DNA of 29,254 nt from a virus. This document shows positions 4,136 through 12,481 of this stretch, piece by piece. Numbering within the stretch: position 1 is the first letter of the stretch; every line of letters begins with the position of its first letter. The position numbers and the translations under genes are program-made. Below the pieces are notes generated by a model. That model saw only the letters and a program-made list of their open reading frames with translations. It did not search any database and was not told the DNA's origin. The stretch is from positions 1 through 29,254 of the IMG/VR virus record IMGVR_UViG_3300049847_000698. One strand, given 5' to 3'.

Positions 4136-4539
4136 GTTTGCGCTCTCCGTTTCAACCGCCACAGCCATATGCTGCGGTCTGCCATCAATCCCGGCGTGAA
4201 GCCCGCAAGCGCAGCAAGCCTTTGTCCGGCCTGCCAGTCGCCGCGCACATGCGCCTTGATGAGAACGCCATCATAAGCCATCTTGCGACACGTCAAGCGC
4301 GCCAGCCTGGTCAGGCGCACCAGCTGGCCTCGCGCACCGGGCGCAAACACCACAGCGAGTTCAGCCAGGCCCTTGCGCACCGCAAAGACCATGGCCAGTG
4401 CCACGGGCGTTTCACCCACCAACACCAGCAGCGCATGCGAGCGCCGCACCTGGTAGAGCAGCGCCTTGCGATACACACTGCGCCCGCCGGCAAAGGCGAG
4501 CGCATCCGAAAGTGTGGCGGGGCGAAGGGTCAACGCCAT
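4132..4539 (-). CDS. GNAT-fold protein in the head module
   Basis: 135 residues from the ATG at 4539, placed on a TGATG overlap with the large terminase stop (a GTG at 4542 is also in frame). The pattern of an N-terminal LRPATLSDALAFA helix, a strand LLVLVGETPVALAMVF, then LAELAVVFAPGARGQLVRLTRLA resembles the GNAT acetyltransferase core, including a motif-A-like turn. GNAT-like genes sit between terminase and portal in several podoviruses, where they are thought to be structural or to act on host or phage proteins. A clear R/Q-x-x-G-x-G/A acetyl-CoA signature is not present, so enzymatic activity is uncertain. Confidence 0.55.
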   Translation of the reverse strand: MALTLRPATLSDALAFAGGRSVYRKALLYQVRRSHALLVLVGETPVALAMVFAVRKGLAELAVVFAPGARGQLVRLTRLARLTCRKMAYDGVLIKAHVRGDWQAGQRLAALAGFTPGLMADRSIWLWRLKRRAQT

Positions 4540-6185
4540 CACCGACCCCGCATAATTGAATGCACATCAAAGCCGGTCTTGGCCTGCACCACGCGCGCCA
4601 TCGGCACCACATTGCCGGCGCGGCCAATTTGTGCGGCTTGCGTCATCACGCCCATGCGGCCGCGGTGGCCGTAGCACAGGTATTGCAGCGCATCGTGCAC
4701 GTGGCTGTATTCGTTTTTCGCCACCATCAACCGGTCAGTCGCACCCGCCGTGGTTTGCTTCGTCAGCTTGTAGTGCGCGGCAAAACCGCCAATCAGCATG
4801 CGGCATGACGGGTCAACGATCATGCGCGGCGTGTGTGCATCGATGCGGCCCAGATAGAACTTTACCGCCTCATGCCGCAACGTGACTTCGTTGCTTTCGG
4901 TTGGCATCACTTGCAGCGACAGCGCTTGCGCCACGATTTTTATCCAGGCGAGTTCACCCGCTTTTTCGTCCGCTCCATACCAGCTGGATGGATCGGCAAA
5001 GGCCTCGCGCACCGGCATGTTGGGGAATTCACGCAGCAATAATTCGAAGGCCATCATCGCGAACCGTTCAGGGCCAGTGCCCGCATCTGCGCAGATTTCG
5101 CGATAGATGCGCAGCTGCCCATTCGGCATGAACTGCCCCACCACCATGGCAGGCGAGCCACCGGCATCGATGCCAAGGGCCAAAGGCAATTCCGGCACCA
5201 CGCGCAAGGGCGCATCAGCGCGGTGGGTTTGCAGCGCGAAGTCTTCACGGTACACGGGCAGTCCGTCCTGGGCATAGCCGGGCTCGCCATGCACAAAGCG
5301 GCGCGCATCGTTTTCGGTCATGTTGGCCAGATCCTGCTCATAGGCAGAACGCGGCTTGCCCACGCGGTTTTCGGCATTGTGCGCAAGGCCGGATGGCTGG
5401 CGGTAGAGGTGATAGAGCGGCCATTTTTCCGGCTCGTCAATCATCCGCTTCACCACCCAGTTGTCATAGTCGGGCGGGTTGCAGTCACCCCACAGCAAGC
5501 GCGGCAAAACAATTTCGTTTTGATCCACGTTCATGCCCGAGGCGCGCATCACTTTCAGCAAGGGCTGTGTGACACGCGACAGCTCTTGATCCGTGTACTG
5601 ATCAAGTGCGGGATAGCGGCCGGTGCGCGAAAACATCAGGCCGGGAATGCGCGCGCCCAGCATGTCGCATTCGTTCAGCCACACATAGGTGGGCTCATAG
5701 CCCTTGGCGAATTGTTCCGGGTTGGCATCACCGATCGCCGCGAAATGCGCTTGCAGCTCGACCGGCACAAACGTCTTGTCGCGGATGGTCGTCCACTTCA
5801 GGTGATGCTTGACGGGGCGATCCTGCCCACCTTCGTAATGCGTGGTCCACGGGTGCTCAATCGGAAACAGGCGTTCATGGTGCCAGCTTTCCAGCGCTGT
5901 TACGGCCAGCTGGCGATAGGTGTCACGCAGCACGGTCAGCTTCACACGGATCACGCCATCACGGCACACCGGCGCGAAGGTCGAGGCCATGTGGACGGGC
6001 TTGTACGCACTCGCCACGGTTTTCCCGGAACCCGCCGGTCCCATGATGATCGAGATCGGGTGCGTGCTGTCGATGAATGCCGCCGCAATCGGCCCAGGCG
6101 GAACGTAGACTTGATGCTGGTAACCCAAAACCCTATGCCCTTTCGGAACCAGCAGGCGGCTTGCCCGCACCCCGCGTGGTTCCAC
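4539..6185 (-). CDS. terL: Terminase large subunit (packaging ATPase/nuclease)
   Basis: A 548-residue packaging motor that pumps DNA into the prohead through the portal and cuts concatemers. The ATPase half shows Walker A GPAGSGKT at 49-56 and Walker B YVWLNECD at 167-174, with catalytic Glu172. The nuclease half shows the RNase-H-like acidic residues: LGIDAGG (D340), FADPSS (D397) and SHVHDALQY (D497). The start is a GTG at 6185, since an in-frame stop lies three codons upstream and no ATG is near; its Shine-Dalgarno is weak. Length and motif spacing match podovirus large terminases. It is separated from the small-subunit candidate by 236 bases and coupled to the GNAT-like gene downstream. 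Confidence 0.95.
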   Translation of the reverse strand: MEPRGVRASRLLVPKGHRVLGYQHQVYVPPGPIAAAFIDSTHPISIIMGPAGSGKTVASAYKPVHMASTFAPVCRDGVIRVKLTVLRDTYRQLAVTALESWHHERLFPIEHPWTTHYEGGQDRPVKHHLKWTTIRDKTFVPVELQAHFAAIGDANPEQFAKGYEPTYVWLNECDMLGARIPGLMFSRTGRYPALDQYTDQELSRVTQPLLKVMRASGMNVDQNEIVLPRLLWGDCNPPDYDNWVVKRMIDEPEKWPLYHLYRQPSGLAHNAENRVGKPRSAYEQDLANMTENDARRFVHGEPGYAQDGLPVYREDFALQTHRADAPLRVVPELPLALGIDAGGSPAMVVGQFMPNGQLRIYREICADAGTGPERFAMMAFELLLREFPNMPVREAFADPSSWYGADEKAGELAWIKIVAQALSLQVMPTESNEVTLRHEAVKFYLGRIDAHTPRMIVDPSCRMLIGGFAAHYKLTKQTTAGATDRLMVAKNEYSHVHDALQYLCYGHRGRMGVMTQAAQIGRAGNVVPMARVVQAKTGFDVHSIMRGR

Positions 6186-6421: not shown

Positions 6422-7126
6422 TCAATCAGCTGCTTTTGATGTGTTAACTATTTGATTATTCTCGATAAGTATCGTCTCGTGCGACTGCCCTTCCGTCTGT
6501 CGCACGGATAAGGCATTGAATTCATTGGCACCGTTGGTGGGATCGAGGCCTCGCACTTCGCCGGGCAATCCAGCACTCATCCTGCCCGCCACGAACAGGT
6601 GCATCTCCTTGTTGGTCTTCTCGATCTTCAATTCCTGCCGCTTGGCAAACTTGTAGGGCATCAACTCAGCCGCGAACTTCGCCTGCATGGCCAGCACCTG
6701 CATGGCCCTGTCATAGGTCGGCTGGCCACCCAGCGCCTGGATCAATTCCAGTGGATCGGCGCTGATGATTTCCATCAACCGCACCTCAGGGGCCTTGAAG
6801 CCACGCGCCTCCAGGTAGTCGAACATTTCGGCATTGCGGCGGTTGGCACTGCCTTCCGGTCTCCCCCTGGCCCTGCGTTTGGCGTTTGTTTGTTCTGCCG
6901 CCTTGGCCAGCGTGTCGAGCATGTCGGGATCGGACAGGGGCAATTCTGGCTCGGTTTTCGTCTGCCTCAGCAGCTCCAGGATTTCCGCTGGCAGCACCGG
7001 CCCGTCCACCTGGCCAGAATTCTGGCCAGGCTTGGCCAAATTTTTCGGCGGTGTGCCTGCCCCACCATGCCCCTGTTCGGCCTCGAAAAGCGGGGTCTGA
7101 ACCTCAGTCATCGCCTTGATCCGCAT
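6422..7126 (-). CDS. Terminase small-subunit candidate
   Basis: A 234-residue protein immediately upstream of the large terminase on the same strand, the standard place for the DNA-recognition subunit. The N-terminal ~85 residues are polar and low in complexity. A basic patch KRRARGRPEGSANRRN (near 82-98) is followed by a helical central region (EMFDYLEARGFKAPEVRLME, then a Met/Ala-rich helix with AKFAAELMPYKFAKR), plausible for DNA binding and oligomerisation. The ATG at 7126 has GGAA 6 nt upstream; a second ATG at 7111 is possible. Small terminases diverge quickly, so the assignment is by context. The repeat array just upstream could be its recognition (pac/cos-like) site. Confidence 0.65.
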   Translation of the reverse strand: MRIKAMTEVQTPLFEAEQGHGGAGTPPKNLAKPGQNSGQVDGPVLPAEILELLRQTKTEPELPLSDPDMLDTLAKAAEQTNAKRRARGRPEGSANRRNAEMFDYLEARGFKAPEVRLMEIISADPLELIQALGGQPTYDRAMQVLAMQAKFAAELMPYKFAKRQELKIEKTNKEMHLFVAGRMSAGLPGEVRGLDPTNGANEFNALSVRQTEGQSHETILIENNQIVNTSKAAD

Positions 7127-7178: not shown

Positions 7179-7411
7179 TGGTAACTAAGTGGCAACCAAG
7201 TGGCAACCAAAAAAGCTATTATAATTCATTTACATACCTCACGTAGTTGCCAAGTTACCAAGTTACCATACCCCTCACGCGCGCCTCCGCGCATGCGCGC
7301 GCGCGTAAGAGGGTATATTTCTGGCAACTTGGCAACCAAGCGGGTCAACTCAATGATTTCCTTAATGTTTTGCGGTTGCCATCCGGTTGCCACTTGGTTG
7401 CCATGGCAACC
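7179..7411. repeat. Array of ~12 TGGYAAC repeats in both orientations (iteron-like)
   Basis: Block A: three abutting 11-bp direct repeats of TGGYAACYAAR at 7179, 7190 and 7201. Block B: three abutting 8-bp repeats AGTTRCCA, in the opposite sense, at 7245, 7253 and 7261. Block C: TGGCAACT at 7322 and TGGCAACCAAG at 7330. Block D: GGTTGCCA at 7374, 7385 and 7396, exactly 11 bp apart. The last copy abuts TGGCAACC at 7404 to give a 16-bp perfect palindrome (7396-7411). Between A and B is an AT-rich stretch (7208-7237) holding TATAAT in both senses. The design resembles an iteron origin or a multi-site binding region for a phage protein. It lies between the terminase and replication blocks. Confidence 0.85.
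7268..7316. repeat. Imperfect inverted repeat with alternating CG tract, centre of the array
   Basis: ATACCCCTCACGCGCGC at the left pairs with the complement of GCGCGCGCGTAAGAGGGTAT at the right, around a short GC-rich centre. Most of the arms are alternating purine-pyrimidine (CG), which can extrude a cruciform or adopt Z-DNA under negative supercoiling. It sits between repeat blocks B and C. Confidence 0.7.
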
Positions 7412-7524
7412 GCTGCCTTGGCCTCCCTGCACCCGATGCCAGCCGCAGCTGGACGTGTCTCAGAACCGTGGCAGCATGGCGCAAATCGAACCCTGTCAAG
7501 TGCCTGTCATGGCCCGCAGGGCCT

Positions 7525-7552
7525 AAAATGCCGCGCGCACCCCGCGCGCGGC
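7525..7552 (-). terminator. GC hairpin, possible weak terminator on the minus strand
   Basis: A perfect 9-bp stem (GCCGCGCGC at 7530-7538 with GCGCGCGGC at 7544-7552) with a 5-nt loop is followed on the minus strand by ATTTTAGG. The U-run is short, so it may be a pause site or mRNA stabiliser rather than a full terminator. Confidence 0.35.
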
Positions 7553-7737
7553 CGCATAAACTCCCATCGCTCAGGACGAAATATCCATCCAAAGACGACT
7601 GGGGCCGGGGTTATGGTGATGATGGTGGTCAAGTGAGGGGTGCGGGCAGTGGATATTCAGAGCATGGCGACACTTGATTATTCATGGCTGTTTCGACGTA
7701 ACGCTTGATCCGTCGCATGGCTGCATAATTCATGCAT

Positions 7738-7768
7738 AAAAAACCCGCTGCCTTGGTGGGGCAGCGGG
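7738..7768 (-). terminator. Rho-independent terminator after the replication operon
   Basis: On the minus strand CCCGCTGCC (7768-7760) pairs with GGCAGCGGG (7752-7744) around a 7-nt loop and is followed by six T (7743-7738). It lies 28 nt past the stop codon of the helicase gene and would end the early/replication transcript before the repeat array. Confidence 0.88.
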
Positions 7769-7795
7769 CAAGGTGCGGGGAGATTGTTCAGTCAG

Positions 7796-9754
7796 TTAAA
7801 ACGGCGTCTCATCAATCTCGGCATCGGCGGCAGCCTGCGCCTTGGTGCGATAGGGCTTGTCATCCATGGTGGCTTCCTGGCCACCGGCGGCGTGGTCCTG
7901 GAAGGCTTTCAGGTCGATCAGCAGGCAGCGCTTGGCCGCACCATTGATCTTGACCGTGGTATATTGCCGTTCGCGCACCACAATGCTCTGTGGCGCTTGT
8001 TTCAGCGTGGCATACCACACGCCGCGGTGCCAGTTGGTGTTGCGGAACAAGGCCTGCAATTGCGGGCCATCGGCGGGCACAGCGAGGTATGGTCCTGCGC
8101 CGGGCTGGCCACAGGTGCCACGGTCACGCACACCCAGGTTGACGAGTTCCAGCCGGTCGCGCGCCTCATCCACTTTCAGATAATCGGTGCGAAGGCTTTC
8201 CAGCACACCACCCACCGTGGGTTTCTTGCCTTCGCGCCAGCTTTCAATGGTGCAGCTCAACAGGTGGTTCACCAGCTTGTGCCACTCATCCACAATTTCT
8301 TCGCGGTCCACGCGCGTGGCCTCACCCAGAATGGCTCCCAGCTGCTTGAAGTCATCGAGCGGCAACCCGCAATCAATCAGGGCCTTGGTGCCCACCATGA
8401 TTTCGGCACAGGCGAGAAGCGTGCCATAAGTATCGATGGCTCGGCTGTCGAGGTGCTGTTCGGCCAGCACATCCCACCAGCGCTGCATGGTCTCCGGGAA
8501 ATCTTTCCAGCCATCCATCATGCGCCGCAGGATCATCTGGCCTTCGGTTTCGTTGCGCACCGCCAGGTCGCGGCCCACGCCATTTTGCGCCTCGAGCCGC
8601 TGCAGGTTCAAAATCGCCATGCGCGTCTTGTCCTGCTCACCCAGATAAGGCCGGTTGATGGCCGAGAACATGAAGCTGGAATGCATGGCAAAGGAAACGC
8701 CTTGGTGGTCCTGCCCGCCGCGATCAATGTTGCCGCCGCTATAAGCCACGCGCGCCAGCTCAATCACACTTTCGGCGCGGTCATTGCCCTGCTTGCTTTC
8801 AAGTTCATCCACCATCACGGGCAGGCTGTCCTGCTTCATGCGTTGATAGATGCCAGCTGCCGATGTGTTGACGGATGAGAACACCACGTTTTCCAGCACA
8901 TATTTGATCATGCTTTGCAGGGTGGATTTGCCAACACCAGCGCCTCCCGTGGTAAACACGATTGGTCTGGCTTTCAGCGCACCGCCATAAAAACAGGTGC
9001 CAATCCAGCCCAGCACCAGCAAGGGGTCAAGGTAAGGCCGTTCCCAGTTCCATGTTTTCAACGCTTCGAGGATCCGCTGTCCGGGGCATTCTTCGGGCGA
9101 CACCGGCCCTTCCCACGGCTCGATGGTGGCAGGCTGGCGGGTATAGAGATAGCTGTCATGCTCGGCCGGTTCCACATGCTGCAATGTGGCGCCTTCCACA
9201 CTCCACATGAACTTGCCGGAATGCCAGATGAAGCGGCCCTGATAATCCTTCCAGCCGCCACGGCCGCGATGCTGCTTTTCAGGGTCGAAAATCGGCAGGC
9301 GCGCAGCCTGGTTGCTCAGGCACATGAACACCTTGTTGACCTGAATACGGTCAATGATGGCGCGCTCAATGATTTTGGTTTCGCCGTCCGGCCCCTGCTC
9401 TTCCACCTTGGACTTGCCCCAGGCTGGCCAGGCCCAGAAGGCATAATTCAACTGCGGCGCAAACAGATCGGTGATGGTCTTGGCATCCCATTTCTCAATG
9501 CCGCGCAAATCGCCCATGGCATTGCGACACCACACCATGCCGCTGGCATCGCGGCCAATCACCCGCACCGGGCAGTTGGGTGGCATTTCGTCATGCGGTG
9601 CACCTTTCCATTTGCCGGGCTTGATGCCATCGCGCGGCCAGTGCGGGTCAGGGTCCAGCGCTGCCGCCTTCTGGTCTTCCTCCAGCTGGCGGCGCGACTT
9701 GGCCCAGATGTCGCGAATGGCCGCGACACCGGTCTTGGTGTGTGATGGGGGCAA
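7796..9754 (-). CDS. Phage replicative helicase / P-loop ATPase
   Basis: A 652-residue protein with Walker A TGGAGVGKST at 269-278 and Walker B LPVMVDELES at 311-320 (D316, E317). This is followed by an arginine-rich sensor region (SAINRPYLGEQDKTRMAILNL), an arrangement typical of the D5/SF3-like helicases of phage and plasmid replication modules. The N-terminal ~230 residues lack a recognised primase motif; the separate Toprim gene upstream provides that candidate. The start is a TTG at 9754: an in-frame stop lies just upstream, and GGAA lies about 8 nt before it. The C-terminus is acidic and disordered (EIDETPF). It is last in the replication operon and followed by a terminator. Expected role: unwinding the phage origin and replication fork. 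Confidence 0.82.
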   Translation of the reverse strand: MPPSHTKTGVAAIRDIWAKSRRQLEEDQKAAALDPDPHWPRDGIKPGKWKGAPHDEMPPNCPVRVIGRDASGMVWCRNAMGDLRGIEKWDAKTITDLFAPQLNYAFWAWPAWGKSKVEEQGPDGETKIIERAIIDRIQVNKVFMCLSNQAARLPIFDPEKQHRGRGGWKDYQGRFIWHSGKFMWSVEGATLQHVEPAEHDSYLYTRQPATIEPWEGPVSPEECPGQRILEALKTWNWERPYLDPLLVLGWIGTCFYGGALKARPIVFTTGGAGVGKSTLQSMIKYVLENVVFSSVNTSAAGIYQRMKQDSLPVMVDELESKQGNDRAESVIELARVAYSGGNIDRGGQDHQGVSFAMHSSFMFSAINRPYLGEQDKTRMAILNLQRLEAQNGVGRDLAVRNETEGQMILRRMMDGWKDFPETMQRWWDVLAEQHLDSRAIDTYGTLLACAEIMVGTKALIDCGLPLDDFKQLGAILGEATRVDREEIVDEWHKLVNHLLSCTIESWREGKKPTVGGVLESLRTDYLKVDEARDRLELVNLGVRDRGTCGQPGAGPYLAVPADGPQLQALFRNTNWHRGVWYATLKQAPQSIVVRERQYTTVKINGAAKRCLLIDLKAFQDHAAGGQEATMDDKPYRTKAQAAADAEIDETPF

Positions 9755-10875: not shown

Positions 10876-11973
10876 CTAAGCCAGGTCATTGAAATCATCG
10901 CCCACGTGGCTGGCAATCACGGTGAGAGGTTTGTTGAATTCGGCCAGCTTGATCAGCCCGGCATTGAGTTGTTTCTGCGCCTGGGCATTGCCCACATTGT
11001 TGTCGCGGGCCACGGTAATGTCGGAAATACAGCCAAGGCCAACCGGTGCCGATCCAAAGCCATTCAGGCTGCCAGCCGCCCACACGCGCGCTTCCGGCGC
11101 TGCAATGGCCAGTGTGGCGGCGGTTTCAATCCCTTCCGCAATGATCAAGGGGTGTGGGGTCAAGGCCCGCCAGAAGGGCTTTCCTTCCGGCCCCATGGAA
11201 ATTTCGATCACCGCTCCCGTGGCCTCTCCAAACATCAGCTTGGCCGGGGTGACCGGCGCTTTGGCAGGCCGCACCGGGTCCAGAAACGTCACATGGCAGC
11301 AGGTCACAATCCCGGTTTTGACGCGCATGGCGGAATGGATGGCGGGAAAGCGCGGGCCTTCCTTCTGCTTGAAGCGGTTGCGATCTTCACTGGTCCACTC
11401 AGCGCCCTTCCACCATTCGGTGGCATCGCCAAAGCGAAAGGTCATGGGGTTCAGGTTTTGCACCATTTCCAGCGGGCAGGCGCGCGCCCGGAAATAATCC
11501 ATGGCATGGGCTTCGGCCACGGTGCCGCAGCCCAGCTCGTCACCTTCAAGGAAAATCTCACCGGCACGCTTCAGCTTGAAGGCGCGGTTTTTCTCGCTGC
11601 GGCGCGCCTCGTCACGCGCCCGGTTTTCGGATTGCGCCCGCAGTTTTTGCCGCTCATCGGCACTCATGTTGCGCAGGCCCAGAAAATCGCGGGCCCAGTT
11701 CATGGCATCCTTGAAGTCACAAGCCAACGCATATTCGATGAGGCGCAGGCAGTCGCCCTTGGCGCCATCGCGATAGTTTTTCCAGGCACCCTTGTCGCCG
11801 CGCAGGGCCACTTTCAGGGCTGGCAGCTGGCCGCGCGCATCTTCTGGCGTGTTGGTCACAAACAGGCGGCCTTCCACATGGCCTCCTGGATAGAGCTTGG
11901 AACACACTTCCAGCATGCGGTCTTTCAGCAGGCCCTTCACTTCGTCCACCTGGCGCTTGGTTTCAGGTGTCAT
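10876..11973 (-). CDS. Toprim-domain DNA primase
   Basis: 365 residues from the ATG at 11973, which overlaps the end of the upstream gene by 11 nt; longer starts to 12009 are possible. The C-terminal Toprim module shows the hallmark EGIETA (280-285) after a hydrophobic strand, then VWAAGSLNGFG and the metal-binding segment ARDNNVGN (322-329). In that segment the usual D-x-D reads R-D-N, so the first acidic residue may be replaced. The N-terminal ~100 residues (GKNYRDGAKGD-like region with CLRLIEYA) resemble the short N-terminal part of phage primases lacking a CxxC zinc ribbon. Expected role: primer synthesis for phage replication with host polymerase. Confidence 0.8.
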   Translation of the reverse strand: MTPETKRQVDEVKGLLKDRMLEVCSKLYPGGHVEGRLFVTNTPEDARGQLPALKVALRGDKGAWKNYRDGAKGDCLRLIEYALACDFKDAMNWARDFLGLRNMSADERQKLRAQSENRARDEARRSEKNRAFKLKRAGEIFLEGDELGCGTVAEAHAMDYFRARACPLEMVQNLNPMTFRFGDATEWWKGAEWTSEDRNRFKQKEGPRFPAIHSAMRVKTGIVTCCHVTFLDPVRPAKAPVTPAKLMFGEATGAVIEISMGPEGKPFWRALTPHPLIIAEGIETAATLAIAAPEARVWAAGSLNGFGSAPVGLGCISDITVARDNNVGNAQAQKQLNAGLIKLAEFNKPLTVIASHVGDDFNDLA

Positions 11974-12481
11974 CGGCAAACCTGTTGAAATAGCTGTCCA
12001 GCTCATCAATCACGGCGGCAAAGGCCGGGTGCTGGTCATAAAGCTGGTCAATGCCCTTGATGGCCAGATGCATGGCTGCCCGCGTCACCATGGCCGCGCG
12101 CGCCACTTCCACTTGCGGCACATTGCAGATCACGTTCAGCACATAGGCCGTCACATGGCGCAGAAACGCATCGCGCTGGCGAAACGCCTGGTCGGCATCG
12201 CGGGTGGTGCCCACATCGCCCAGATCGACGCTCGCAGGGTCAACACCAAAGCGCGTGCACACCATGGCCAGTGTGGCGCGATAATTCAGGGTCAGGTCGC
12301 GGTCGCGGTTTTTGCTGGCATCGCACAGCTTGCGCAAGGCGGGTTTCAGGGCACGCAGGGTTTCATTCACCACGCTTTTGCCCCGCTTGGCATTGGCAAT
12401 TGTCTGAACGCTCACCCCGGCATAGTTGGCAATTTCCCGGTTGGAAACCCAGAATGGATCAGGAAATGCCAGGTCATGCAT
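11963..12481 (-). CDS. HTH protein with a DnaA domain IV-like C-terminus (origin-binding candidate)
   Basis: A 172-residue protein with two recognisable parts. Residues 13-35 (SNREIANYAGVSVQTIANAKRG) form a lambda/Cro-type helix-turn-helix. Residues ~100-165 (RQRDAFLRHVTAYVLNVICN, VPQVEVARAAMVTRAAMHLA, then IDQLYDQHPAFAAVIDELDSYF) track the pattern of DnaA domain IV as found in alphaproteobacterial proteins: an R...AMYL helix, a turn, an R-T-x-V/A-x-H-A helix, and a C-terminal ED..DP.F helix. No AAA+ domain is present, so it could bind an origin but not by itself act as a DnaA ATPase. It lies directly upstream of and overlaps the primase. Function is inferred; a regulator is the alternative. 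Confidence 0.6.
   Translation of the reverse strand: MHDLAFPDPFWVSNREIANYAGVSVQTIANAKRGKSVVNETLRALKPALRKLCDASKNRDRDLTLNYRATLAMVCTRFGVDPASVDLGDVGTTRDADQAFRQRDAFLRHVTAYVLNVICNVPQVEVARAAMVTRAAMHLAIKGIDQLYDQHPAFAAVIDELDSYFNRFADDT

Follow-up and report, generated by a model that had tools for sequence, protein, structure and literature searches.

A predicted Rep-ori type replication origin of temperate phages and phage-plasmids, whose repeat word appears to change with an adjoining AAA+ helicase

SaPI Reps bind iterons located directly 3' of rep via their C-terminal domain, apparently as two hexamers, and Cch2 likewise binds direct repeats downstream of its own gene via its C-terminal domain (PMC7581432). 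In PICIs, the order is pri-rep-ori, sometimes followed by terS, and two sets of iterons are placed around an AT-rich region (PMC6092414). Here we describe an array of short repeats in a virus record of 29,254 bases (the window) that shares several features with the rep-ori regions of these satellites, including those of SaPIbov1 Rep, SaPI5 Rep and the E. coli PICI Pri-Rep. Its proposed initiator, termed hel, belongs with the D5/Cch-type helicase-initiators at the level of fold, and the repeats are located 3' of the helicase gene, directly after hel in phage-plasmids and with accessory genes in between in some relatives. There are two iteron sets, with six plus six sites being the mode in 38 loci; a primase gene is found upstream and terS downstream, as in some PICIs. 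Unlike the satellite origins, the array occurs in complete temperate phages and phage-plasmids, its core is GC-rich and alternating where PICIs have an AT-rich centre, with AT-rich spacers inside the halves, and it contains an IHF-like site. Moreover, PICI and SaPI Reps carry DUF927 or D5_N/Primase_Cterm, whereas hel of the window has no Pfam match at E 0.5. Since the AT-rich centre is absent and hel falls outside these Pfam families, the array was not filed as a member of the PICI/SaPI rep-ori group. What is new is that it occurs in temperate phages that are complete, that its core is CG instead of AT-rich, and that specificity is exchanged.

Two further systems are close to the locus. SCCmec Cch (5dgk) is the PDB structure closest to the AlphaFold2 model of hel (pLDDT 82), which also matches poxvirus D5/E5, NrS-1 and SaPI helicases, all of these being partial fold matches with TM 0.43-0.52; however, Cch2 has three iterons, in contrast to twelve in a fixed grammar here. 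hel has no NCBIfam match, and its sole library label is PHROG 'DNA primase'. P4 alpha with ori/crr is similar, by description only, in being the helicase of a phage satellite that works at its own cognate origin, where short repeats are found; it differs in that primase and helicase are fused in alpha, and in that P4 is a satellite (PMC6092414 and general knowledge).

An earlier sequence-only reading of the window had reported about 12 copies of TGGYAAC in five blocks of alternating orientation, with exact 11-bp or 8-bp periods and a perfect 16-bp palindrome formed by the last two units, all of which we could confirm. Exactly 12 of the 19 exact copies in the window are located within 233 bp at 7179-7411, starting at 7179, 7190 and 7201 (+), 7246, 7254 and 7262 (-), 7322 and 7330 (+), 7375, 7386 and 7397 (-), and 7404 (+), with periods of 11 bp in the outer blocks and 8 bp in the inner ones. 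No more than 4 copies per 233 bp were obtained in 1000 order-1 Markov sequences of the same dinucleotide make-up, and the 7 copies outside the array are scattered singly and are not above chance, the expectation for the window as a whole being 11.3. The AT-rich gap between blocks that was also reported is present at 7208-7245, but it is located inside one of two six-site halves (7322-7411 and 7179-7268), which are divided by a CG-rich tract. From the hel side to the terS side, the array consists of the following features:

7396-7411, no strand assigned: 16-bp palindrome GGTTGCCATGGCAACC, the inverted first site pair of the hel-side half, sites 7397 (-) and 7404 (+)
7375-7403, minus strand: block 1, sites 7375, 7386 and 7397, 11-bp period
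7346-7358, minus strand: IHF-like site AATCATTGAGTTG in the spacer that separates block 1 from block 2, differing from WATCAANNNNTTR at one position
7322-7336, plus strand: block 2, sites 7322 and 7330, 8-bp period, bringing the hel-side half to six sites
7269-7321, no strand assigned: CG-rich tract at the centre, including 20 bp of alternating purines and pyrimidines; a hairpin is also possible (z -2.8)
7246-7268, minus strand: block 3, sites 7246, 7254 and 7262, 8-bp period
7208-7245, no strand assigned: AT-rich spacer between blocks 3 and 4, candidate unwinding element as read from the letters
7179-7207, plus strand: block 4, sites 7179, 7190 and 7201, 11-bp period, bringing the terS-side half to six sites

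The central tract is 67% GC, and its alternating run of 20 bp compares with 6 in shuffles. The inverted first pair was also found in four other loci (L139, L141, L144 and L175). No cluster of DnaA-type boxes was detected, with three TTWTNCACA in the window and none in the array, and an Rfam search gave no match. A GC-skew switch at the array, suggested earlier as a check, was looked for and gave no signal.

On the minus strand, the genes are ordered as HTH protein, Toprim primase, RyR-domain protein, GapR, hel, then the array, a terS-like gene and terL. The elements relevant to the array are:

10876-12009, minus strand: Toprim / DUF7146 primase, presumed partner of hel, present in 29/29 records compared
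7796-9754, minus strand: hel, 652-aa D5/Cch-like AAA+ helicase (primase-helicase), proposed array-binding initiator
7743-7769, minus strand: intrinsic-terminator-like hairpin just 3' of hel, between hel and the array, a consensus match only
6422-7126, minus strand: terS-like gene starting 53 bp past the array, apparently not the specificity partner
4539-6185, minus strand: terminase large subunit (TerL), used as the query for relatives

The hel stop codon is 385 bp from the array in the window, and the C-terminal domain of the protein spans residues ~491-622. Like the primase, hel, terS and terL are present in all 29 related records, the HTH protein in 27 and GapR in 22. The protein with two HTH-like regions (window 11963-12481) is fast evolving and has no Pfam match above the cut-off.

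A TerL profile search retrieved 53 viral contigs and three further loci, which belong to Stappia, Roseibium and a Rhodobacterales strain. Wherever the sequence of a relative extends far enough upstream of terS, the same noncoding gap is occupied by an array whose repeated word is 6-7 bp long. Absence of the array from all close relatives, which the earlier reading had named as a refutation, was not observed, but the words are others: besides TGGCAAC of the window we observed TGGTTAC, GGTTAG, GGTTGA, GGTTGAC, GGTAGAC, AATTAGA, GGTTACC and CGTTACC, among others. When 38 loci were scanned with position weights, each showed 9-14 sites at nearly constant offsets, the usual layout being four plus two sites, the CG tract, and then three plus three or two plus four. 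Six is the modal count for both the left half (27 of the 38) and the right half (28 of the 38), and about ten loci depart from it by the site caller used. The alternating purine/pyrimidine run of the core is mostly 12-31 bp long in relatives, versus ~6 in shuffles, an IHF-like site with no more than one mismatch is found in the first spacer of 30/38, and the spacer between blocks 3 and 4 is AT-rich in most relatives too. Across related phages, the repeat word changes together with hel and the layout is retained. The distant TerL relative Burkholderia phage BcepC6B has no such array at its terS. A scan of viral contigs with the single hel protein gave no matches, a nucleotide search of known phages matched only the GapR/DUF2312 gene, and a scan of the collection for TGGCAAC repeats returned mostly unrelated repeats. 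In a different alphaproteobacterial-type phage, 12-13 GTTGCCA were found in ~300 bp directly 3' of another Toprim/AAA primase-helicase gene (L012:1210-1512 and L013:4387-4690), perhaps an independent origin sharing the word. In phages of other types (L006, L010, L015 and L016), TGGCAACCAAGTGGCAACC occurs within a replication-protein-like gene, followed in some by AT-rich TAGTATAG-type repeats, and these are candidate origins embedded in a gene.

Two pairs of relatives are the most informative about the protein that may read the sites. Phages G007 and G026 are 94% identical in TerL, 92% in TerS, 96% in the primase and 85% in the HTH protein, but only 57% in hel; their motifs, AATTAGA and GCGTTACC, are unrelated, and the array forms a sharply bounded dissimilar island of 292 bp between flanks that are 80% and 90% identical. 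Conversely, G004 and G026 have a motif in common, and hel is their best conserved replication gene, at 85% versus 66% for TerS, 70% for the primase and 72% for the HTH protein, although ~2 kb between hel and the array are unrelated. When all pairs are taken together, distance-based correlations stay weak (partial Mantel r 0.16, p 0.045) because motif similarity saturates, so close pairs were used; the primase correlates somewhat better over the full set. For the 86 pairs in which TerL identity was 60% or higher, a shared motif was predicted with an AUC of 0.93 by hel, 0.82 by TerS and 0.78 by TerL, and the difference between hel and TerS exceeded zero in 99% of bootstrap samples. The best predictor was the C-terminal domain of hel (0.96), which is also encoded nearest the array; as hel adjoins the array and this domain lies at the near end, part of the correlation could reflect linkage. 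However, terS is nearer to the array than hel and yet is the poorer predictor. By these comparisons, the motif is coupled to hel rather than to terS.

The primase-helicase was missing from the candidate binders of the sequence-only reading, and those that it named did not hold up. TerS and the 'DnaA-like' HTH protein are disfavoured by their high identity in the G007/G026 pair; the latter has no Pfam DnaA domain, and its N-terminal HTH resembles that of the phage sharing the motif less (60%) than that of the phage whose motif differs (65%). The incomplete occurrence of GapR speaks against it, and the primase, too, was rejected or disfavoured given its conservation in the same pair.

Independent contexts were obtained by tblastn with hel, which led to Phaeobacter and Leisingera phage-plasmids whose terminases are unrelated and of other types. 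There, a gap of ~327 bp directly 3' of the hel relative follows the same site grammar, the word being cGTTACGC. The arrangement also recurs in a faecal phage that is only distantly related (28% identity in TerL and 29% in hel), with about twelve sites of GGTTCT type. In Azospirillum plasmid TSH58_p02, which has a hel relative, no array was found with the seed used.

Taken with the layout and the model of hel, these data suggest that the array is most probably a lytic replication origin of Rep-ori type, bound by the adjoining upstream-encoded AAA+ helicase hel and loading two hexamers. The option of an iteron origin in the earlier reading is thereby supported. Two hel hexamers would each bind one of the six-site halves through their C-terminal domains, and melting may be helped by an IHF-like bend and the AT-rich spacer within the halves, together with torsion stored in the central CG tract. 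The two helicases would then depart in opposite directions, and the Toprim primase would prime synthesis.

Lambda cosB likewise combines repeats and an IHF site upstream of terS. The array could by analogy be a packaging site (cos or pac) where TerS binds the repeats, IHF bends the DNA and the GC-rich core by terS is cleaved, and both its distance of 53 bp upstream of terS and the IHF-like site between blocks fit such a role. We regard it as improbable, since the motif does not follow TerS: it is unrelated between the nearly identical TerS proteins of G007 and G026, the same motif accompanies TerS proteins only 57-68% identical, and the same arrangement recurs in phage-plasmids with other terminase types. 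A late-promoter control region, at which the two-HTH protein or hel would bind the repeats and switch the terS-terL operon, is a decidedly improbable sole function. A weak promoter-like match is located at 7206-7178 (-), and the position of the array between the putative terminator and terS implies that a late promoter is probably in or near the array; however, the motif does not follow the HTH protein, and a six-plus-six symmetry with AT-rich and CG elements exceeds the needs of a promoter. A late-operon promoter role could hold in addition to origin function. Very improbably, hel and the array co-travel merely as neighbours and another protein is the binder, as their adjacency in the window and the better correlation of the nearer 3' part of hel might suggest, but terS is closer yet decoupled, the G004/G026 pairing persists despite unrelated sequence between hel and the array, and the pairing recurs in phage-plasmids.

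For the preferred reading, an origin bound by hel, we tentatively propose a wider one, in which the locus is a portable cassette of initiator and origin that temperate phages and phage-plasmids carry. Six sites per half would template one hexamer, a Z-DNA-prone CG tract would replace the AT-rich centre, swapping of the hel-array pair would create replication compatibility groups, and the pri-rep-ori-terS order could relate to the source of the PICI module. With so close a counterpart in phage-plasmids and complete temperate phages, satellites become connected with full phages. The many natural specificity variants on one scaffold could be used directly to test how an origin is read by a self-loading helicase and whether six sites per half count out a hexamer, and the motifs could help to predict which phages and satellites replicate each other.

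Several minor elements were noted around the array. A GC-rich inverted-repeat element is located between hel and the array (window 7480-7570), and many relatives have a likely counterpart (GCGGAGCCCGCGC...GCGCGGGCACTTAA). The elements CCCNCGCCC and GCAnTTGAC/GCACTTAAC are repeated around accessory genes between hel and the array (window 7620-7660; upstream of block 1 in many loci) and are possible gene-exchange boundaries. In one prophage (L137:1-5306), two large genes that by eye resemble restriction or helicase systems adjoin the array, which suggests that its neighbourhood is a cargo site.
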